Shown piece by piece: positions 9,266-62,873 of a stretch of 64,000 nucleotides of DNA. The stretch spans positions 1 to 64,000 of the IMG/VR virus record IMGVR_UViG_3300028654_000014; one strand, 5' to 3'. The translations under genes and the position numbers were made by a program. The stretch comes from a virus. Below the pieces are notes generated by a model. It saw nothing but the letters and a program-made list of their open reading frames with translations. It was not told the origin of the DNA and did not search any database. Each line of letters begins with the position of its first letter. Positions within the stretch are counted from its first letter, which is position 1.

Positions 9266-9393
9266 TGGTATTGTATATATACAGAGATTTAACTTTCAGT
9301 GTAGAATGGACTATAACACCTACTCCAATCCAAAGGGAATTCATAAAAAGTGATTACTTAACAAAAAGGATTATAATTTGCGAATATTGTTAA
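9265..9393 (+). CDS. YE-tail mini-protein
   Basis: 42 residues, MVLYIYRDLTF to RIIICEYC. The last residue is Cys instead of Glu. TAATG overlap with the gene before; its end overlaps the protease gene. Confidence 0.55.
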   Translation: MVLYIYRDLTFSVEWTITPTPIQREFIKSDYLTKRIIICEYC

Positions 9394-10064
9394 TGATTTT
9401 AATAAGTTTGAATTTACAGGCAAAAACTCTCAGAGTATTAGAAATTGATACTGGAATTTCACTTTCCCATCAAGAAATTACAGATCATATTGATTTTAGT
9501 AACTTTAATAGAGCAGATTATATAGATGATCATCCAATTTCCCACGGAACTCATATAGCAGGTTTAATAGTTAAAGATACATGTAAACAAGTAGAATTGA
9601 TAAGCTGTAAATACTTCTTTCAAAATACATCACAAGATGTTATAAGAAATGAGATTAATTGTTTTAAAAGAGCTTTAACTTTAAATATTGATGTTATAAA
9701 CTATTCATCTTATGGATATTCTTATGTTAAAGAAGAATATGAACTTTTAAAGCAATTGAGGGATAAAAATATAATAATTATTACATCTGCCGGAAATGAA
9801 GGAAATGATATTTCATTAAAAAGAAACAGAAGATACTTATCAGGATATGATTTATCAAATATTATAGTAGTTGGGAATTTAGAAGCTAATGGAATAAAGA
9901 ATCCTACTAGTAATTATGGATTTCCAGGGATGAAATGGGAGTTGGGAACTGATATTTATTCAACATTAGCCAATGGAAAATTTGGATATTTAACTGGAAG
10001 TTCACAAGCAACTGCAATTCACACAAACAAATGGTTAAAGAAAAAATGTCTAGAGCTAAATTAG
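9378..10064 (+). CDS. Subtilisin-like serine protease (S8), probably exported
   Basis: 228 residues, compact for the family. All catalytic motifs are present: Asp in EIDTGIS (about 24), His in HGTHIAG (about 57), oxyanion Asn in SAGNEGN (about 139), Ser in GSSQA (about 210, usually GTSMA). The N-terminus (MRILLMILISLNLQA) reads as a short signal peptide if TTG at 9378 (AAAGG eight bases upstream) is used; ATG at 9393 would shorten it. No propeptide is evident. Role unknown: processing of envelope proteins, host killing or virion maturation are possible. Confidence 0.75.
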   Translation: MRILLMILISLNLQAKTLRVLEIDTGISLSHQEITDHIDFSNFNRADYIDDHPISHGTHIAGLIVKDTCKQVELISCKYFFQNTSQDVIRNEINCFKRALTLNIDVINYSSYGYSYVKEEYELLKQLRDKNIIIITSAGNEGNDISLKRNRRYLSGYDLSNIIVVGNLEANGIKNPTSNYGFPGMKWELGTDIYSTLANGKFGYLTGSSQATAIHTNKWLKKKCLELN

Positions 10065-11076: not shown

Positions 11077-11105
11077 TTGACAATGAAGATAATTAATAGT
11101 ATAAT
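11077..11105 (+). promoter_or_regulatory. Consensus sigma-70 promoter
   Basis: TTGACA (11077-11082), 17 bases, TATAAT (11100-11105): a perfect match. It starts four bases after the previous stop and drives the annealing-protein operon. Confidence 0.8.
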
Positions 11106-12256: not shown

Positions 12257-12375
12257 CCAAACCGTTGATTATTTATTTGACAGTTTCAATATTATTTGGT
12301 ATAATATCTTTAATAGGTTTGAATTATTTAAGAAAGATTGTTAAATTATTAGAAAGGAAAGATAATGAAAAATAA
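12253..12375 (+). CDS. Small membrane protein overlapping a promoter
   Basis: 40 residues, MTKPLIIYLTVSILFGIISLIGL then a basic tail. The codons for LTVSILFGII contain a complete consensus promoter. Overlaps the next gene by 11 bases. Confidence 0.5.
   Translation: MTKPLIIYLTVSILFGIISLIGLNYLRKIVKLLERKDNEK
12277..12305 (+). promoter_or_regulatory. Consensus sigma-70 promoter inside a gene
   Basis: TTGACA (12277-12282), 17 bases, TATAAT (12300-12305). A perfect match within the gene at 12253; would drive the genes from 12365 onward. Confidence 0.7.
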
Positions 12376-13321: not shown

Positions 13322-13661
13322 AGCAATAGATGATACAGGATTGATTAGTAATTTAAATACATTAACAACAGGATCAGTACTTTTATCAAATAGTGTAAAT
13401 GGTGGAACTGGTGGTAATGGAATTAATTCTATAACCGGAGGTTTAGATTTAAATACTAATACGGGCAGTGGAATTGCAACAAATTCATGGTATGTTCCAA
13501 CAACTACATTAGCTTATAGTTATTGGTATCCAACATTACCAGTCCCAACAGTTTCAATTGATAAAGTTGAAAATGGATTTATAATTACAAAAGATAATAA
13601 AAGATTTGTAGCTAAAAAAGCTGAAGAAATTCTTAAATATTTAAAAGGAGAAGAAAAATGA
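13305..13661 (+). CDS. Hypothetical Gly/Asn-rich phage protein
   Basis: 118 residues from ATG at 13305 (GGAG seven bases upstream; the ATG at 13299 overlaps the ribosome site). Low-complexity G/N/T/S region at 25-65, then VSIDKVENGFIITKDNKRFVAKKAEEILKYL, split here only by punctuation of strands: an 'IDKVENGxII' beta element followed by a helix, frequent at the C-terminus of small phage proteins. The layout resembles the gene at 10588. Confidence 0.55.
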   Translation: MSQNLKAIDDTGLISNLNTLTTGSVLLSNSVNGGTGGNGINSITGGLDLNTNTGSGIATNSWYVPTTTLAYSYWYPTLPVPTVSIDKVENGFIITKDNKRFVAKKAEEILKYLKGEEK

Positions 13662-13951
13662 GTGAAGTAAAAGCAAAAACTGTAAGATTGGGGACAATTC
13701 TTCAAACAGATGCAGAAAAAGGTCCCTTTATGATTTTGGGCAATAATAAAAACAAAGACCCAAAATATGATTATACAGTTCAAATTAGAGTTTTGCAAGG
13801 AAGTCCAAAAACTCCAGAAGAATTTAAAAAGGCTACAGTTTTGTATAGTGGAACTAATCCATTGGTTTATATGAATAAGCCACGAGGAGAAAATGTTCCA
13901 AAAATTGTAAAACATGAATTGGCTGTGCCTTTAAAATTAGTAGAAGATTAA
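13658..13951 (+). CDS. Hypothetical protein
   Basis: 97 residues. AAAGGAG precedes the start; ATGA overlap. Beta-rich pattern (VRLGTILQTD ... YTVQIRVLQG ... LAVPLKLVED) with conserved-looking KGPFMILGN. No family recognised. Last gene before the hairpin-rich gap. Confidence 0.55.
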   Translation: MSEVKAKTVRLGTILQTDAEKGPFMILGNNKNKDPKYDYTVQIRVLQGSPKTPEEFKKATVLYSGTNPLVYMNKPRGENVPKIVKHELAVPLKLVED

Positions 13952-14228
13952 TTTATATACGTAGTAAAACTACTTATAAAGTCCATTGAAAAGTGGAAGT
14001 TGTTTCTGAAAAGAACATAAACGTTAGCGAATGAAATAACTAACGTTAGGGTCTGTGAGTGCAAATCTCACATAAATCAGGAATGGGTAAATCGTTCGAG
14101 TCGATGGTCCTGATGTATATAATTTATCCCAGTAATTATTCAGTCACATGGAGTAATTACAAATACCTTATTCCTCCCCTCTAAGGTATTTCCTTTCAAA
14201 GTTGTGAACAAGCCGGAGGTAATCCGGC
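13952..14228 (+). ncRNA. Run of eight hairpins upstream of primase; candidate structured RNA
   Basis: Nearly the whole intergenic gap can be folded on the plus strand: TTTATA+GTAGT/ACTAC+TATAAA (13952-13980); TCCAT/GTGGA (13982-13997); AACGTTAG/CTAACGTT, 8 bp (14020-14047); TGTGAG/CTCACA (14054-14072); TCAGGA/TCCTGA enclosing ATCG/CGAT (14077-14113); GTAATTA/TAATTAC (14132-14160); AAATACCTTA/TAAGGTATTT, 10 bp (14161-14191); GCCGGA/TCCGGC (14212-14228). A weaker GTTT/GAAC pair sits at 14002-14016. No U-run follows, so these are not standard terminators, and no tRNA cloverleaf fits. Could be a leader, a noncoding RNA or an origin. Confidence 0.5.
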
Positions 14229-14250
14229 ATTAAACTAAGGGAGTGATTGA

Positions 14251-16170
14251 ATGATGTCTCAAAAATATGTTAGATTAACAAAACATTTTCAAGATAAGGG
14301 AATTTTAGTAAAACAAGAAGAAGTTTCCAGTCAAATTAAAGATAAGAACAAAGAACACTATCAAAGTACCTATTATTACAATGAAGAACATTTTAAAGAG
14401 TTTCAAAAAGTTGGTTCGATAAAAGGAATCAAAGATGTTACTACTAATCAAATTTGGTGGGATTTTGATTCTTCAGATTTAAAATTAGCCCGAAAAGATA
14501 CAATTGAACTTGTAAAGCGTTTAAATGATTATAAAATTACATCTGATCAATTAGAAATTTATTTCTCAGGAAATAAAGGATTTCATGTAATTATTAATGT
14601 TGATAAAGAAATCAATAGAAAACAAGTTGAAAACTTCTCAAGACGAGTGGCGAAAGATTTAAAAACATTTGATACAAGTCTTTATGATGAATCACAAGTT
14701 TTAAGAATTCCTGGCACAAAGCATCATAAAACTGAATACTTTAAAACTTCATTAACTCATGATGAATTATTAAATCTTAAAACCGCTGCCCTTTTAGAAA
14801 AAGCCAAAATTCCCCAACAAATAAAATCCTCACAAAAACTAACCCTCCCTGAAAAACTATTTGAAGTTGAAGAAGTAAAAGTTCAACCAGTTACTACAAC
14901 ATTTGACATAAGCGCAAAACCAAAAGGATGGAAGGGTTCAAAATTTGCCCTATTACAAGGATTCTATGGAGCGGGTGAAAGAAGTCAAGCAATGATGATA
15001 ATAGCTTCGACTTGTAGGGCTTTAGGATATGATGAATCCACAACTTACCATATGTGTCTAAGTTCTTTAGAAAAATCATGGGAAAAGAATGGAAAAGGTT
15101 CATTTGATGAAAATGAATTACAAACCAATATTATTAATCAAGTATTTGGAGAACATTGGAATGGAGGACAATATTCGGAAAAAAATGATATGTTCCTTCA
15201 GAAAAAGGCCGATGAGTTGGGAATCAGAGAAATAGCACCAACTTCAACCGTTAATATAAAGGGAGCTTTAAAACTCTTTAAAGGATACGCAAAAAATATT
15301 GATGAATTAACATTAAAAACTGGAATTCAAGAATTAGATGCAAAACAAAGAATAACAGTTGGTATGTCATGGGGAATAATTGCAGCCCCAGGAGTTGGAA
15401 AAACATCTTGTGCATTACAAATGTTACACGCAATGTCAAAAGCTGGGGAATTATGCGTTTATCTTTCATATGATATGTTTGCCCCACACGTTGTTCAAAA
15501 GATCATTCAAAAGCACTGGAAAGGTAATAATATTGAAGAAGTCTTTGAAAAATACAAAGCAGGAGATGAAAAATTTACAAAGGAAGTAGAAGAATTAATT
15601 GAAGTTGAATATCCTAATGTTGAATTTTGTTTTGAAAGTGGCCAATCAATTGATGATATAAAACAAACAATCAGAGATGCTGAACAAAAATGCGGTAAGA
15701 AATGTAAATTTGTAGTAGTAGATTATAATGAATTAGTTATTACAGATGTTTCAGATCCAACACAAAGTTCTAATAAAGTTGCTCAACAAATTAGAGCTTT
15801 GGCATCAAATGAACAAATTTGTATTCTATCACTATTTCAACCTAATAAACTCACCGGAGATCCTTCAGTTGAAATTAAATCATACCGAGCAGCAAAAGGT
15901 GGTTCAGGAATTGAACAATCTGTAAGTTTAATGCTTGGAATGTCCAGACCTGGATTTGACCCCCGCAGACCTGATGATGATAAATATGTATCATTAAATT
16001 GCGTTAAGAATCGAATGGGATCAATCTTTTATGTAGATTTATACTGGAATGGTTATGAAGGAATGGTCCGATCTTTAACAAATGTTGAGAAAGTTGAATT
16101 AAAAGAACTTAGAGCTGCAAGAGAAGCTGAAAAAAATGGAACAAAGTTAGGATTAAATGATGACTGGTGA
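14251..16170 (+). CDS. Primase-helicase fusion (archaeo-eukaryotic primase-like plus DnaB/RecA-type helicase)
   Basis: 639 residues. N-terminal primase-like domain: acidic WWDFDSSD near 70, YFSGNKGFHVI near 105 and LRIPGTKHHKTEYFK near 155, matching the DxD, SGxKGxH and R-x-PGSxHxK elements of archaeo-eukaryotic primases. Then a linker, and a RecA-type helicase core with Walker A (APGVGKTS, about 380), Walker B (FVVVDYNEL, about 487), a SLFQPNKL motif and a C-terminal KNRMGS arginine element. Should prime and unwind at the phage fork. GGGAG lies eight bases before the first ATG; the second ATG is also possible. Confidence 0.75.
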   Translation: MMSQKYVRLTKHFQDKGILVKQEEVSSQIKDKNKEHYQSTYYYNEEHFKEFQKVGSIKGIKDVTTNQIWWDFDSSDLKLARKDTIELVKRLNDYKITSDQLEIYFSGNKGFHVIINVDKEINRKQVENFSRRVAKDLKTFDTSLYDESQVLRIPGTKHHKTEYFKTSLTHDELLNLKTAALLEKAKIPQQIKSSQKLTLPEKLFEVEEVKVQPVTTTFDISAKPKGWKGSKFALLQGFYGAGERSQAMMIIASTCRALGYDESTTYHMCLSSLEKSWEKNGKGSFDENELQTNIINQVFGEHWNGGQYSEKNDMFLQKKADELGIREIAPTSTVNIKGALKLFKGYAKNIDELTLKTGIQELDAKQRITVGMSWGIIAAPGVGKTSCALQMLHAMSKAGELCVYLSYDMFAPHVVQKIIQKHWKGNNIEEVFEKYKAGDEKFTKEVEELIEVEYPNVEFCFESGQSIDDIKQTIRDAEQKCGKKCKFVVVDYNELVITDVSDPTQSSNKVAQQIRALASNEQICILSLFQPNKLTGDPSVEIKSYRAAKGGSGIEQSVSLMLGMSRPGFDPRRPDDDKYVSLNCVKNRMGSIFYVDLYWNGYEGMVRSLTNVEKVELKELRAAREAEKNGTKLGLNDDW

Positions 16171-18149: not shown

Positions 18150-18324
18150 ATTAAAATATTACACAGAAGATACAAATAAAAATTGGATATTCAGAATAAA
18201 AAATGATAGGGTTCTTAATTATATGTATATTGAAAAGGAAGAATCATATTGGCATGTATGTGGTAATAATATAGATAATCATAAAGAAAATGGGAAAATA
18301 ATTGATATATTAACTTATGAATGA
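18142..18324 (+). CDS. YE-tail mini-protein
   Basis: 60 residues, MIELKYYTED to KIIDILTYE. Paralog of the preceding gene. The tail TATGAATGA holds the polymerase start codon, so the polymerase begins MNE. Confidence 0.65.
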   Translation: MIELKYYTEDTNKNWIFRIKNDRVLNYMYIEKEESYWHVCGNNIDNHKENGKIIDILTYE

Positions 18325-19804
18325 AATATTATATGGTAAACAAGAATTACAAAAAATAGTATCAATAGAACCTTCAAATAGTTCTGTTGAAATTTTCATT
18401 CAAGATAATCAAGGAAATGTTAAATCAGAATTTGTTGAAAACCGTTCATGGATTTTAAGCCATTTTCCTCTAAAAGACTTTAAAAAACTCCAAGGTAATC
18501 TTTATTATCAATATGGTAAACAATTTAGAGAAAGAAACGAATTTCAAAAAGCTCGAAGCTATTTAAAAAACTCAGACATATTTTCAATTTATGACCCAAA
18601 AGAATCTTTCATGGTTCTAAAGGGTTATACTTATTTTAAAGGATTAAAACACCAAGATGTTACAATTCTTTCATTTGACATTGAAACTACAACAAAAGAT
18701 TTAAATGATCAATCTAAACTTCTACTAATATCCAATACATTTAGAAAAAACGGCATAATTACTAAAAAGCTATTCTCCTATGATGATTATAATGATGAAG
18801 GAGAAATGATTGAAGAATGGTGCAAATGGGTTAGAAAAATGGACCCAAGCATTATAACAGGTCATTATATTTTAGTATTTGATTTGGATTATATTCAATT
18901 CATAGCTAATAAATATAATGTTGCTTTAAAATTAGGCCGAGATGGTTCTAATATGAAAGTTAACAATTATGAATCACAATTTAGAAAAGATGGTTCACAA
19001 TCTTATTCATATTACAAACATTACATTTATGGCCGAGAAATTATTGATGGATACTTTTTAGCTTTAAAATATGATATTGGTAGAAAATATGATAATTATA
19101 AGTTAAAGAATATAATCAAACAAGAAGGATTAGAAAAACAAGGAAGAGTATTTTATGATGCTTCAAAAATCAGAGAGAATTATAAGAATCCTACCGAATG
19201 GGCTAAAATAAAAGAATATTGTATAGATGATTCTGATGATTCATTAGCAATATTTGATTTAATGAGTCCAGCATTATTTTATTCGGCGCAAATGATTCCC
19301 AAACCCTTTCAATTAATATCAGAATGCGCAACAGGTTCACAAATTAATTCAATTATGATGAGAAGTTATTTACAAAATGGTCATAGTTTACCAAGAGCTT
19401 CTGATCCTTTTCCTTTTAAAGGTGCAATATCAATAGGAAATTTTGGAATCTATAGAAATGTATTTAAAGTAGACGTTTCAAGTCTATATCCTTCAATAAT
19501 GATCCAATATGAAGTTTACGATAAAGATAAAGATCCTAATGGAAATTTCTTATATTTGGTAAAAAATCTAACGGAACAAAGACTTATAAATAAAAAATTA
19601 GCAAAAGAAACTGGAGATAATTATTATAAAGGATTAGAACAGAGCCAGAAAATTTTAGTGAATTCTGCTTACGGATTTTTAGCTGCGGCAGGTTTGATAT
19701 TTAATTCTCCTATTAAAGCTGATTTTATTACAGAAACTGGAAGAGATATATTAAAAAAATCTATTTTATGGGCAACAGGAAAAGAATATGACGAAAACAG
19801 TTGA
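18317..19804 (+). CDS. Family B DNA polymerase, N-terminal part (exonuclease, motifs A and B)
   Basis: 495 residues. 3'-5' exonuclease motifs: FDIETTT near 120 (Exo I), GHYILVFDLDYI near 182 (Exo II), YCIDDSDD near 301 (Exo III). Polymerase motif A: KVDVSSLYPS near 385; motif B: KILVNSAYG near 445. The chain ends at ATGKEYDENS, a few residues before motif C should appear; the last five codons already overlap the HNH gene. Motif C is encoded in the gene at 20323, so the enzyme must form from two chains if it is active. Confidence 0.85.
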   Translation: MNEILYGKQELQKIVSIEPSNSSVEIFIQDNQGNVKSEFVENRSWILSHFPLKDFKKLQGNLYYQYGKQFRERNEFQKARSYLKNSDIFSIYDPKESFMVLKGYTYFKGLKHQDVTILSFDIETTTKDLNDQSKLLLISNTFRKNGIITKKLFSYDDYNDEGEMIEEWCKWVRKMDPSIITGHYILVFDLDYIQFIANKYNVALKLGRDGSNMKVNNYESQFRKDGSQSYSYYKHYIYGREIIDGYFLALKYDIGRKYDNYKLKNIIKQEGLEKQGRVFYDASKIRENYKNPTEWAKIKEYCIDDSDDSLAIFDLMSPALFYSAQMIPKPFQLISECATGSQINSIMMRSYLQNGHSLPRASDPFPFKGAISIGNFGIYRNVFKVDVSSLYPSIMIQYEVYDKDKDPNGNFLYLVKNLTEQRLINKKLAKETGDNYYKGLEQSQKILVNSAYGFLAAAGLIFNSPIKADFITETGRDILKKSILWATGKEYDENS

Positions 19805-20330
19805 TTTAATTGGTAAAAGATTTGGAAGATGGTTAGTTTTAGAAATTTCAAACATGGGAAAAAATCCTAGAGTAAAAGTAATATGTGATTGTGGTACAGA
19901 AAAAATTATATTAAGTAAAACTTTAGTAGCTAAAAAAGCTAAAAGTACATCATGTGGATGTTATCAAAGAGAAAGAGTAAAAGAATGTTTAGGAAAACCA
20001 AATGATGTATCAGCTTTAAATCAATATTATTCAATTTATAAAACTTCAGCAAAACAAAGAAATCATAATTTTAATCTTACTAAATATGAATTCAAACAAT
20101 TTATTTTTGAAAAATGTTATTATTGTGAAAAAAATCCAGAACCTAGACTTATACATTCTAGAGGATTACTTTTAAATGTAAATGGAATAGATAGAGTTGA
20201 TAATTCTAAAGGTTATTCTATTGAAAATTGTGTAACTTGTTGTAAAGATTGTAATAATAAAAAATCAGATATAACTAAAAATATTATAATAAAAGCTTAT
20301 AATTTTCTAATGGGGGATAATAATGCATAA
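19788..20330 (+). CDS. HNH homing-type endonuclease splitting the DNA polymerase gene
   Basis: 180 residues. N-terminal DNA-binding-type module (DLIGKRFGRWLVLE, then CDCG ... SCGC, a presumed zinc site seen in phage homing endonucleases), then the HNH core CYYCEK ... GIDRVDNSKGYSIENC and CCKDCNNKKSD. It sits between the two polymerase parts, overlapping each by 8-17 bases. No intron core or intein splice motif is visible, so it looks like a freestanding endonuclease gene that split its target, as described for MobE in the Aeh1 nrdA gene. Confidence 0.8.
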   Translation: MTKTVDLIGKRFGRWLVLEISNMGKNPRVKVICDCGTEKIILSKTLVAKKAKSTSCGCYQRERVKECLGKPNDVSALNQYYSIYKTSAKQRNHNFNLTKYEFKQFIFEKCYYCEKNPEPRLIHSRGLLLNVNGIDRVDNSKGYSIENCVTCCKDCNNKKSDITKNIIIKAYNFLMGDNNA

Positions 20331-55458: not shown

Positions 55459-58400
55459 TTATTTAAGTTGTTTTACTATCCAAGTTATACTTGGTGAATT
55501 TGATAGATTTTCTATACTTAAAGTTCCACCTGTAACTTGTCCTTGAATACTTATTGTAGCAGCTGAACCCGAACTAAATGCATATATTCCAGTAAGTGTA
55601 ATAGGAGAACTTTGACTAATTGCTCCAATAATTGCAGCAGAAGAAAAATTAATTGTTCCATCTGTTAAAAAGAAACTACCTTGTGCAGCACTTTGATCTC
55701 CAAAAAATATAGCTGTTATTTCATAAACAGAACTAGAAGATGCTGGAGTTATAGAAAGACCAGCAACATTACTAGATGCAGCACTTACTGTTATTCCATC
55801 ACTAAATATTGTAGTTAAAGTATTATTTCCAGAATTTGTTAAAGCTGCTTGAGATGTACTTGAAGTTGACCATGATGTTGTATTTAGCATACTACCACTA
55901 TAATAATTTACTGAAGCAACAGATGATGGTGTTCCCCAAGTTGGAGCAGAAGTACCATTTGAAATTGGAACTTGACCAGTAGTACCAGCTCCCATATTTA
56001 CAAATTTAGTACCATCAGAATAAAACATTCCACCGGCTGTAACAGAAAGTGAACCATTATTAGTACCACCATTTGCAATTGGTAATACGTTTGATACTTG
56101 AGAAGTTAAATTAACTGAAACACTTGTTAATTGAGAAAATGGTAAACTTAAAGCACTTAAAGTTGTTATAGTAGAATTAGATGAAGCTGTAATATTTGAA
56201 GCTGTACCAGTTGTAGATTGATTTAAAGTTGGAATATCACCAGCTACAATTGCTCCCCATGCTGGAGCAGCAGAAATAGATCCTGTTCCTGTTTGTGTTA
56301 AAAATTGTTTTGTTGAAGTAATATTACCAGCTAATCTTGCAGCAACAGGAGTTGCATTTTCATAAATTATATCACCCAATGTAGTCATTGGATTTGAAAA
56401 ACCAGCAGGAGGAGCAGCAAAAGTTCCATCGGCTCTTAAGAAATTACTTGTTCCACCACCAGAAGCTGGAACCAAACCTTGAAGAGTAGATGTAAATAAA
56501 TTTAAATCAGCAGTTAATTGAGTTGAAGTTACATCTATAGCATTTGCAGTAGAACCTGTATTATTACCTTTATATGTATGAGCTGCCATTTGGGAAAGAT
56601 TAGAATTGGTAACAACATTTGTTCCTGAAACAGTTCCAGCACTACCACTAGCATTTCCTGTTAAATTTGCAGTAACAGTTGTAGCTGATATAGAACCGTT
56701 GACTTGTAAAAAATCTGTTCCATTATCTGTAGTTGTATTTATTAAAACATGACCAGAAGTAGTAACTCTTACTCTTTCAGTACGAGTTGTAGATCCTGTT
56801 GGAGTTGAATTAAGTGTTAAATAAGCACCTTGAGCCGAATCAGTCCAATTTTCACCAGCAAGAAATCCAACACTTGCTTTTACATTTGAACCAAAAGCAG
56901 TAGCTCCATATCCAAGACCGCCAACAAAACCTAAACTATCATTTGATTGAACAGCAGTTGGACTTCCAGAAGTTCCTCTTGCACGTCTTATTTTAAGACC
57001 AGCATTACCAGCATTATCATAATTTGTTAATTGTAAATTTTGAGTTGTTGCAGAACTTTGAGCTTGTAAATCTAAAATAGAATTTGCTGCTGGAGCTACT
57101 CCAACACCTAAAGCTTTATTTGTTGCATCAACTATTAAAGCGTTTGTATTTACAGTAAAAGCTGTAGTAGAAGTAGAAGATACTGCTAAATCACCACTAA
57201 AAGTTTTAGCCCCAGCAATTGTTTGAGTTGTTGTAGAAATTCCACCAGGATGTGTTGAATCTGCTGGTTGAAGATTTAATACTTGTCCAGAAATACTTAA
57301 ACCATTAGCATTAGGAGTTGATCCAAAAGCTGCTAAAGTAACATCACCACTATTTGTACCAGAAGAAGATCCAGAAATATTAGTAGCTGAAATTGTTCCT
57401 GCTAAAGTAGCATTACCTTGATAAGTAACTGCAAAAGCATTAGATCTATGTGTATTATCAGTACCATTACCAATTATAAAAGCATTATCAGTATTAACTA
57501 AACTTCCTGATGTACCTTGAACTACGTTATAACTACCAATAGCAGTTTGTCCATAACCTTGAGCTGTAGTTCCAACATTTGCAGCATGAGCAGCTAAACC
57601 TGAAGTTAAAGTACCAGTACCTTCTGCATGAGAATAAGTAGATCCTGCTGTATTATTTTGACCTTCAACATGACTATAATCACCTGAAGCTGTATTTGTA
57701 GATCCTTCAGAATGTGATGCATAACCAGAAGCATTTGTACTTTCACCTTCTGCATGAGAAATATTTCCAGAAGCTATTGTTCCCGTACCTTCTGCATGAG
57801 AATTTGTATTAGTTGCTTGAGTTGAAGATCCTTCAGCATGAGCAGAAGCAGCAGAAGCTGTTACTGTATCACCAGTAGCTGTAGAATTATCACCAGATGC
57901 TGTTGAATTATTACCGGAAGCAAATGAATTTAAACCTGAAGTAACATTACCAGTTCCAACAGCAACAGTAATTGTAAATGTTTTAGCTCCTGCAAAAGAT
58001 TGTGTAGTAGTTGAAACTCCTCCTGGATTTGTAGCATCAGCAGGTTGAAGAGTTAAAACTTGAGTAGATAATGATGCTCCATTAGAATTAGGAGAACTTC
58101 CAAAAGTTGCTAAAGTTACAGGATTATGAGATCCTTGATTTATAGTAAATCCGCTAGATCCTGGAGTAACTGTTACGATACCAGCAGTATTAGGAGCTTT
58201 AAATATCCAACTATTACGATCAGAAGAAGTTTGAGCATAACCTGTTACTATATTATTTTCTTCAACATTAATACCAGAATTAGAACCACTTCCAACTCCA
58301 GCACCAACATTTAAATTTATAACAGGATTAGATACATTTAAAGTTGTAGTATTTTCAAATATTGTTGTACCTTGAATATTTACAGTCGCGCCAGAATTTC

Positions 58401-62193: not shown

Positions 62194-62753
62194 TACTTTT
62201 TAACCTCTAAAATACTACAATATTTATTTGACTTTTTAATATTATGAATCTTCCATAAAGGTTGTAAATTCTTGTAATTATTAACTTTTAAGAATTCTTC
62301 CCTAATAGTTAAATCAACTTTACTTAAAGGGATAATATGATCTAATTCCCACTTACCATAATTATCCCACGACATACCTTCTGTGAATTGTTTTTCTAAA
62401 TGAATCTTTAATTCATCTATAGAACATCCCAAATCCTTTACAGCTGATCCTGCCTTTTGATTTTGTTTTAAAGCATGATAAAGCCGACTTCTTAAATTAT
62501 GAGCTAATCTGAAGTTTGTATTAATCTTACGATGTTCTTTAACATATATTTTTCTATAATTTTTGACTTTTTCTTTATTATTTTTTATATATTTTTTAAC
62601 ATATGTATATTTATTATTATTTTGTTTCTGATATTCAGCTTTTTTTAACTTAAAACATGATTTACAATCATATCTAAAACCATCTTTAGATTGCTTATAA
62701 CGATAATATTCTTTATAATCTTTTAAATTATTACATGTTTTACAGATTTTCAT
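62193..62753 (-). CDS. HNH endonuclease downstream of the capsid gene
   Basis: 186 residues. Zinc site CKTC ... DCKSC at the N-terminus, Lys-rich middle, then ELDHIIPLSKVDL and NLQPLWKIHNIKKS, the HNH core. AGGA overlaps the start region. It stands between capsid and tail genes without a structural role, so probably a freestanding homing-type endonuclease. Confidence 0.75.
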   Translation of the reverse strand: MKICKTCNNLKDYKEYYRYKQSKDGFRYDCKSCFKLKKAEYQKQNNNKYTYVKKYIKNNKEKVKNYRKIYVKEHRKINTNFRLAHNLRSRLYHALKQNQKAGSAVKDLGCSIDELKIHLEKQFTEGMSWDNYGKWELDHIIPLSKVDLTIREEFLKVNNYKNLQPLWKIHNIKKSNKYCSILEVKK

Positions 62754-62771: not shown

Positions 62772-62841
62772 CTGTATATTTGATAAAAAATAAAGAATTT
62801 TTTGTATATTAAGTAGTTGATTTTATTAAAGAATTTAGATA

Positions 62842-62873
62842 AAAAAATAGGGACCTTTTTTAAGGGTCCCTAC
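62842..62873 (-). terminator. Rho-independent terminator of the capsid gene
   Basis: On the minus strand AGGGACC/GGTCCCT (7 bp, extended by TT/AA after one bulged C), loop of A, followed by a run of seven T within nine bases. It starts 22 bases after the capsid stop codon. Strong and correctly oriented. Confidence 0.85.

Follow-up and report, generated by a model that had tools for sequence, protein, structure and literature searches.

A densely folded intergenic element at a putative conserved transcript end ahead of the primase-helicase gene of an uncultivated phage

In a 64,000-nt stretch of viral DNA (positions 1 to 64,000 of IMG/VR record IMGVR_UViG_3300028654_000014, hereafter the window), the 299-nt gap at 13952-14250, between the stop of a 97-aa ORF (13951) and the start of a primase-helicase gene (14251), carries structure that is not random. 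Comparison with relatives indicates a conserved transcript end here, belonging to the upstream 97-aa gene. We put at about even the chance that the gap is an enlarged terminator or 3'-UTR element, specific to this lineage, by which read-through into the primase gene is kept down.

The gap has a GC content of 0.36 versus about 0.28 in its surroundings, which bears out the higher local GC reported for it, relative to the neighbouring genes, by a first-pass annotation made from the sequence. The minimum free energy (MFE) of 13952-14228 is -71.6 kcal/mol (z -3.98), and none of 200 dinucleotide shuffles was equally stable, so the structure stands against the shuffle comparison that the annotation had named as a way to refute it. 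When 13952-14126 and 14127-14228 are folded separately, each gives a z of about -4, and the transcribed strand has a slight advantage over the other strand (z -4.1 versus -3.4). Leaving energies aside, we also scored the gap, and 277-nt windows across the whole 82-kb record, by the best chain of perfect hairpins that do not overlap and whose stems have at least 6 bp. The best chain in the gap comprises 36 bp in five hairpins, whereas shuffles average 4 bp and none of 1,000 does as well; this density is equalled at only one other region of the record, near 62641. In 150-nt windows the gap reaches a z of -3.0 at best, which is not extreme genome-wide, and several coding windows are lower. With these 150-nt z-scores being unexceptional, the unusual feature of the gap is the packing of perfect stems more than their energy.

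Two other structured places in the record stand out. The genome's lowest 150-nt folding z (-7.9, from 24 shuffles) lies within a coding region at 58201-58350 on the minus strand. The sole other region matching the gap in perfect-hairpin density is a hairpin cluster in an intergenic gap around 62841-62872, where a canonical intrinsic terminator (TAGGGACC / GGTCCCTA, then TTTTTTT) is found on the minus strand.

The predicted fold of the gap has two parts, a multibranched module at 13953-14122 and three hairpins at 14132-14228, with all coordinates here referring to the plus strand. The first-pass annotation had described eight consecutive hairpins of 5-10 bp; eight perfect Watson-Crick stems are indeed present where it placed them, but the first stem closes the multibranch domain and is not one hairpin in a row. 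This closing helix, P1 (TATATAC / GTATATA, 13954-13960/14115-14121), is a long-range 7-bp helix and inverted repeat (I1) with pair probabilities of 0.94-1.0. Within it are found the hairpins P2 (GTAGT-AAA-ACTAC, 13961-13973, 5-bp stem), P5 (AACGTTAG / CTAACGTT, 14020-14047, 8-bp stem with a 12-nt loop) and P6 (TGTGAG-TGCAAAT-CTCACA, 14054-14072, 6 bp with a T-loop-like 7-nt loop, pair probabilities 0.78-1.0). These are followed by the 7-bp helix P7 (ATCAGGA / TCCTGAT, 14076-14114, probability 0.86-0.96), which encloses the T-arm-like hairpin P7a (ATCG-TTCGAGT-CGAT, 14091-14105, 4-bp stem, probability about 0.6). The MFE structure contains two small GAAA-loop hairpins in addition to the eight perfect stems, namely P3 (TCCATT-GAAA-AGTGGA, 13982-13997, pair probabilities 0.93-1.0), whose loop is a GNRA tetraloop, and the weak P4 (TTCT-GAAA-AGAA, 14004-14015, pair probabilities 0.4-0.8). 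An alternative 11-bp helix with four G-U pairs (14043-14053/14106-14116) is predicted 2.7 kcal/mol above the MFE and cannot coexist with P5, with P7 or with part of P1. The fold containing it is the predicted MFE of a nascent RNA ending at 14117, and completion of P1 is predicted to shift the preference to the first fold. A small ORF at 14059-14184 (41 codons, GTG start), for which no Shine-Dalgarno sequence was seen, was judged to be due to chance.

Downstream of the module, hairpin H8 (GTAATTATTC / GAGTAATTAC, 14132-14160) has 7 bp followed by one G-U pair and two more pairs, H9 (AAATACCTTA / TAAGGTATTT, 14161-14191) has 10 perfect bp around the pyrimidine loop TTCCTCCCCTC, and H10 (GCCGGA-GGTAA-TCCGGC, 14212-14228) has a 6-bp stem. 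A C-rich, G-poor patch at 14160-14199 is centred on H9. It falls in the top 0.1% of plus-strand 40-nt windows for C minus G and ranks highest by this measure among the 16 intergenic gaps tested.

The 97-aa ORF (13658-13951, plus strand) matched no PHROG or Pfam entry, although its position is kept in relatives by synteny. The AlphaFold2 model of its product is of low confidence (pLDDT 41.7) and an OB-fold prediction failed; that it is a single-stranded-DNA-binding protein is only a guess. The gene after the gap (14251-16170, plus strand) encodes a 639-aa AEP primase/DnaB-like helicase, per Pfam and PHROGs, with Pfam matches to DnaB_C (5.9e-16) and to AEP-TOTE (8.4e-5, below Pfam's cut-off). 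It is preceded by the Shine-Dalgarno-like AAGGGAG at 14237-14243, with H10 ending 8 nt ahead of this ribosome-binding site (RBS). A sigma-70-like promoter match, by consensus only (TTGATA-16-TATAAT, 13558-13585, plus strand, 11 of 12 consensus positions), precedes the 97-aa ORF by 73 nt, and a sigma-70 consensus scan found no promoter-like site on the plus strand of the gap. Because a transcript from the 13558 match would start just before the 97-aa gene, the gap would be read as the 3'-UTR or intercistronic part of that transcript.

Several further features of the window were observed. Perfect 12/12 sigma-70 matches with 17-nt spacers lie upstream of replication-region genes at 11077-11105 and 12277-12305, the latter also with an extended -10. 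Among replication-region genes, a Subtilase-family (Peptidase_S8) protein is encoded at 9378-10064. A family B DNA polymerase ORF at 18317-20330 stops early, at 19804 (495 aa), and its end is overlapped by a 180-aa ORF (19788-20330) that is HNH-type endonuclease-like by eye, so that the polymerase gene is possibly interrupted or split.

Relatives were collected by profile searches with the primase-helicase. These retrieved viral loci with identities as low as about 23-30%, along with a locus on a bacterial MAG contig. A recurring gene order around the site runs from an Erf-like annealing protein through small proteins and the 97-aa-like protein to the primase-helicase. The spacer ahead of the primase-helicase is 299 nt in the window, 237 nt in L007, 87 nt in L008, 95 nt in L009, 113 nt in L010, 88 nt in L011, 58 nt in L013, 82 nt in L014, 76 nt in L019 and 99 nt in L021; L024, a relative from the genome-contig search, has no gap. 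A strict scan for intrinsic terminators (five paired outer positions, at least three G-C in the outer 7, energy of -9 or lower, and a T-run) found six in the 1,234 nt of these ten spacers versus five in 91,676 nt outside them. Of 14 loci with a spacer behind the 97-aa-like gene, 8 have a canonical intrinsic terminator there, while the remaining sequence of these loci, about 127 kb, yields seven. Two of them, L012 and L015, have the terminator directly behind the small gene, then an extra small ORF and then the primase. Since terminators stay with the small gene despite the intervening ORF, the site is, on this comparison, the transcript end of the upstream gene.

The strict scan found no terminator in the spacers of the window, L008, L009, L011, L016 and L017. 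A U-run directly after the stem is present in eight relatives and absent from the window's gap, confirming the earlier remark that none of its hairpins is followed by a T-run; without one, the window's copy is not itself an intrinsic terminator. In a tree, the window groups with L007 and L008, with L009 next. L007, among the closest relatives at 57% amino acid identity, has a terminator and further structure in its 237-nt gap. C/U-rich tracts on the coding strand recur at the terminator site, often in a hairpin loop, in the spacers of L007, L009, L010, L012, L014, L015, L019 and L021, with the tract of the window at 14171-14182. These tracts number 9 in 1,601 nt of spacers versus 41 in 128,560 nt elsewhere in the loci, a roughly 18-fold difference for a motif picked post hoc, after inspection of the data, and between spacers and coding sequence that differ in composition. 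In the minus-strand structural half of another phage, L025:1207-2484 encodes a protein with an ice-binding-like domain (Pfam Ice_binding, 5.3e-22).

The reading of the gap as an expanded terminator or 3'-UTR element draws on the non-random fold and its slight advantage on the transcribed strand, the terminator-rich site in relatives (with the examples of L007, L012 and L015), the promoter match upstream of the 97-aa gene and the lack of one in the gap, and the C/U tracts and C-rich patch, a motif picked post hoc. Against it, the window's copy lacks a T-run, L008 and L009, two of the three nearest relatives by tree, have short spacers with no canonical terminator, and a two-part structure of about 280 nt exceeds what a terminator needs. 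We infer that the window's copy terminates or attenuates transcription, with possible Rho involvement and protection of mRNA. The gap would form the 3'-end region of the 97-aa gene transcript at the conserved boundary before the primase-helicase, the canonical terminator having been replaced in the window's lineage by a multi-helix RNA of about 280 nt with no U-run. Acting in cis, the nascent RNA would fold and slow or stop RNA polymerase. Stable stem-loops are present, per the fold and shuffle statistics, at what is a putative transcript end; with no U-run, termination would need a pause and Rho, which may load on the patch at 14160-14199. This patch has the C-rich, G-poor, untranslated character of a Rho-dependent terminator, though it lies partly within a hairpin, and rut sites are unstructured (PMC2988021). 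The helices would also shield the upstream message at its 3' end, and the 97-aa protein would thus be made in excess over the primase-helicase.

Known phage elements offer partial parallels. Intrinsic terminators of T4 consist of a GC-rich stem, a 4-nt loop and a poly(U) tract (PMC2988022). The gap resembles such terminators in having hairpins at an intercistronic boundary, where relatives carry textbook examples, and differs from them in its lack of poly(U), its length of about 280 nt and its multibranched form. A second parallel is with intercistronic elements of RNA processing and stability such as T4 segG-gene 32, with its RNase E processing (PMC2988022). There, too, a small gene is separated from a replication gene by RNA that is structured or processed and so sets relative mRNA amounts, as the gap may do, but the genes and the phage group are different. 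Hairpins limit translation of mobE, segB and I-TevI in T4-like phages, and seg43(25) has a stable hairpin just upstream of its RBS (PMC2988022). The gap hairpins are similarly close upstream of an RBS but do not pair with it above chance. Two 7-nt loops of the gap fit the T-loop pattern of tRNA, RNase P and T-box RNAs (PMC4919913), yet the gap matches none of these families. The gap would belong with the terminators and 3'-end elements known from between the genes of phage operons, in the unusual and apparently lineage-specific form of a large multibranched RNA with no U-run.

Searches for homologues left the gap element apparently an orphan in everything searched. No family reached the gathering threshold in an Rfam 15 scan of the gap, which covered riboswitches, group I introns, T-boxes and ribozymes; the best sub-threshold ribozyme match, twister-P3 (15.3 versus 39.9 bits), and snoRNA matches were judged to be chance. 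BLAST against phage and plasmid records found no similar DNA, and a covariance model of the module (R1), built from the single sequence, matched nothing but its own source among 18 loci and 11 virus records, in searches that may omit records very close to the window's own. This lack of homologues is an absence of data and does not count against the structure. A mobile element was also considered and set aside, as the module occurs only once in the record and no target-site duplication was seen at 13949-13960/14115-14126, its outer inverted repeat.

The first-pass annotation had offered a phage noncoding RNA, a structured leader controlling the primase, or an origin. For the first of these, a structured noncoding element holds up, and an RNA that acts in cis fits, while a discrete RNA finds no support in a gap with no plus-strand promoter and no homologue. 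We consider it rather unlikely that processing of the operon mRNA releases a trans-acting RNA whose tertiary fold relies on GAAA tetraloops and a pair of T-loop-like hairpins. P1 does close a compact 170-nt module, the loops TGCAAAT and TTCGAGT match the T-loop pattern, UNNRAN, and two GAAA tetraloops are present, but the RNA would be an orphan by covariance model and by BLAST against phages and plasmids, with neither promoter nor terminator of its own. A leader of the primase-helicase, riboswitch-like or protein-binding and switching between two folds to gate translation or read-through, is similarly a minority reading. The position directly before the primase start would fit it, as would the two mutually exclusive folds within 2.7 kcal/mol of each other, with the predicted MFE of the growing RNA changing as P1 is completed. 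Near-isoenergetic fold pairs are, however, common in any RNA, Rfam returned no riboswitch match, and structure in the relatives tracks the upstream gene, as part of the 3' end of that 97-aa gene and not of the primase. Anti-Shine-Dalgarno pairing of C-rich loops with the primase RBS was attractive by eye but did not exceed shuffles, and pairing between gap and RBS was no better than shuffles in any of 10 phages (P 0.1-1.0).

Descent from one or two tRNA genes is improbable. Several observations point to it: the 19 nt of P6 recur exactly in L027, an unrelated viral contig, as the T-arm of a weak tRNA match; P7a has a canonical T-loop sequence; ARAGORN at lowered thresholds draws a poor tRNA-Leu at 14046-14114; and in the relatives L010 and L014 tRNA genes lie no more than a few kb from the primase gene. 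At normal thresholds neither ARAGORN nor Rfam gives a match, in agreement with the first-pass view that TTCGAGT sits in a T-arm-like stem with no fitting cloverleaf. The forced cloverleaf has no good anticodon stem, needs three G-U pairs in its acceptor and would form at the expense of P7, a perfect 7-bp helix. By our own estimate, on an assumed collection size, about 0.4 exact 19-mer matches are expected by chance. The exact T-arm pattern AAATCGTTCGAGTCGATGG gave no hit in IMG/VR, and TGTGAGTGCAAATCTCACA gave one, within the weak tRNA-like element of L027. A whole-module model does not match L027, and the other words common to both (11 and 10 nt) are in different order and of lengths also reached by shuffles. 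The L027 element itself lies in a noncoding stretch of about 500 nt (L027:8721-9251) and is a degenerate tRNA-like element whose T-arm is identical to window 14054-14072; it scores 30.9 bits against Rfam tRNA in a lax search, goes unreported by ARAGORN or a default search, and shares its stretch with a permuted tmRNA drawn by ARAGORN at lowered thresholds. Least probable is a replication origin or primosome-assembly site with DNA hairpins, despite the adjoining primase-helicase gene and mostly perfect stems that could form in DNA too. Cumulative GC skew, the check suggested for an origin, has no turn at the gap, its turn near 40 kb following gene orientation; there are no iterons, the gap is GC-richer than its surroundings, with no AT-rich element, and in relatives it is absent or terminator-like, leaving the origin proposal with no support.

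The comparison points to a putative transcript-end site that the replication operon of an uncultivated phage group has retained over large divergence while the sequence there fully turned over, with terminators in most relatives and a large folded RNA in one lineage. There is a small chance, on a reading that rests on one sequence, that this RNA represents an unrecognised phage noncoding class, a multibranched RNA of about 170 nt bearing GAAA tetraloops and a pair of T-loop hairpins, which took over the terminator site and serves as a switch or trans-acting RNA during phage DNA replication. If the folded RNA does exceed a terminator's role, it would be a candidate for a new phage RNA, and one clearly accessible to experiment.
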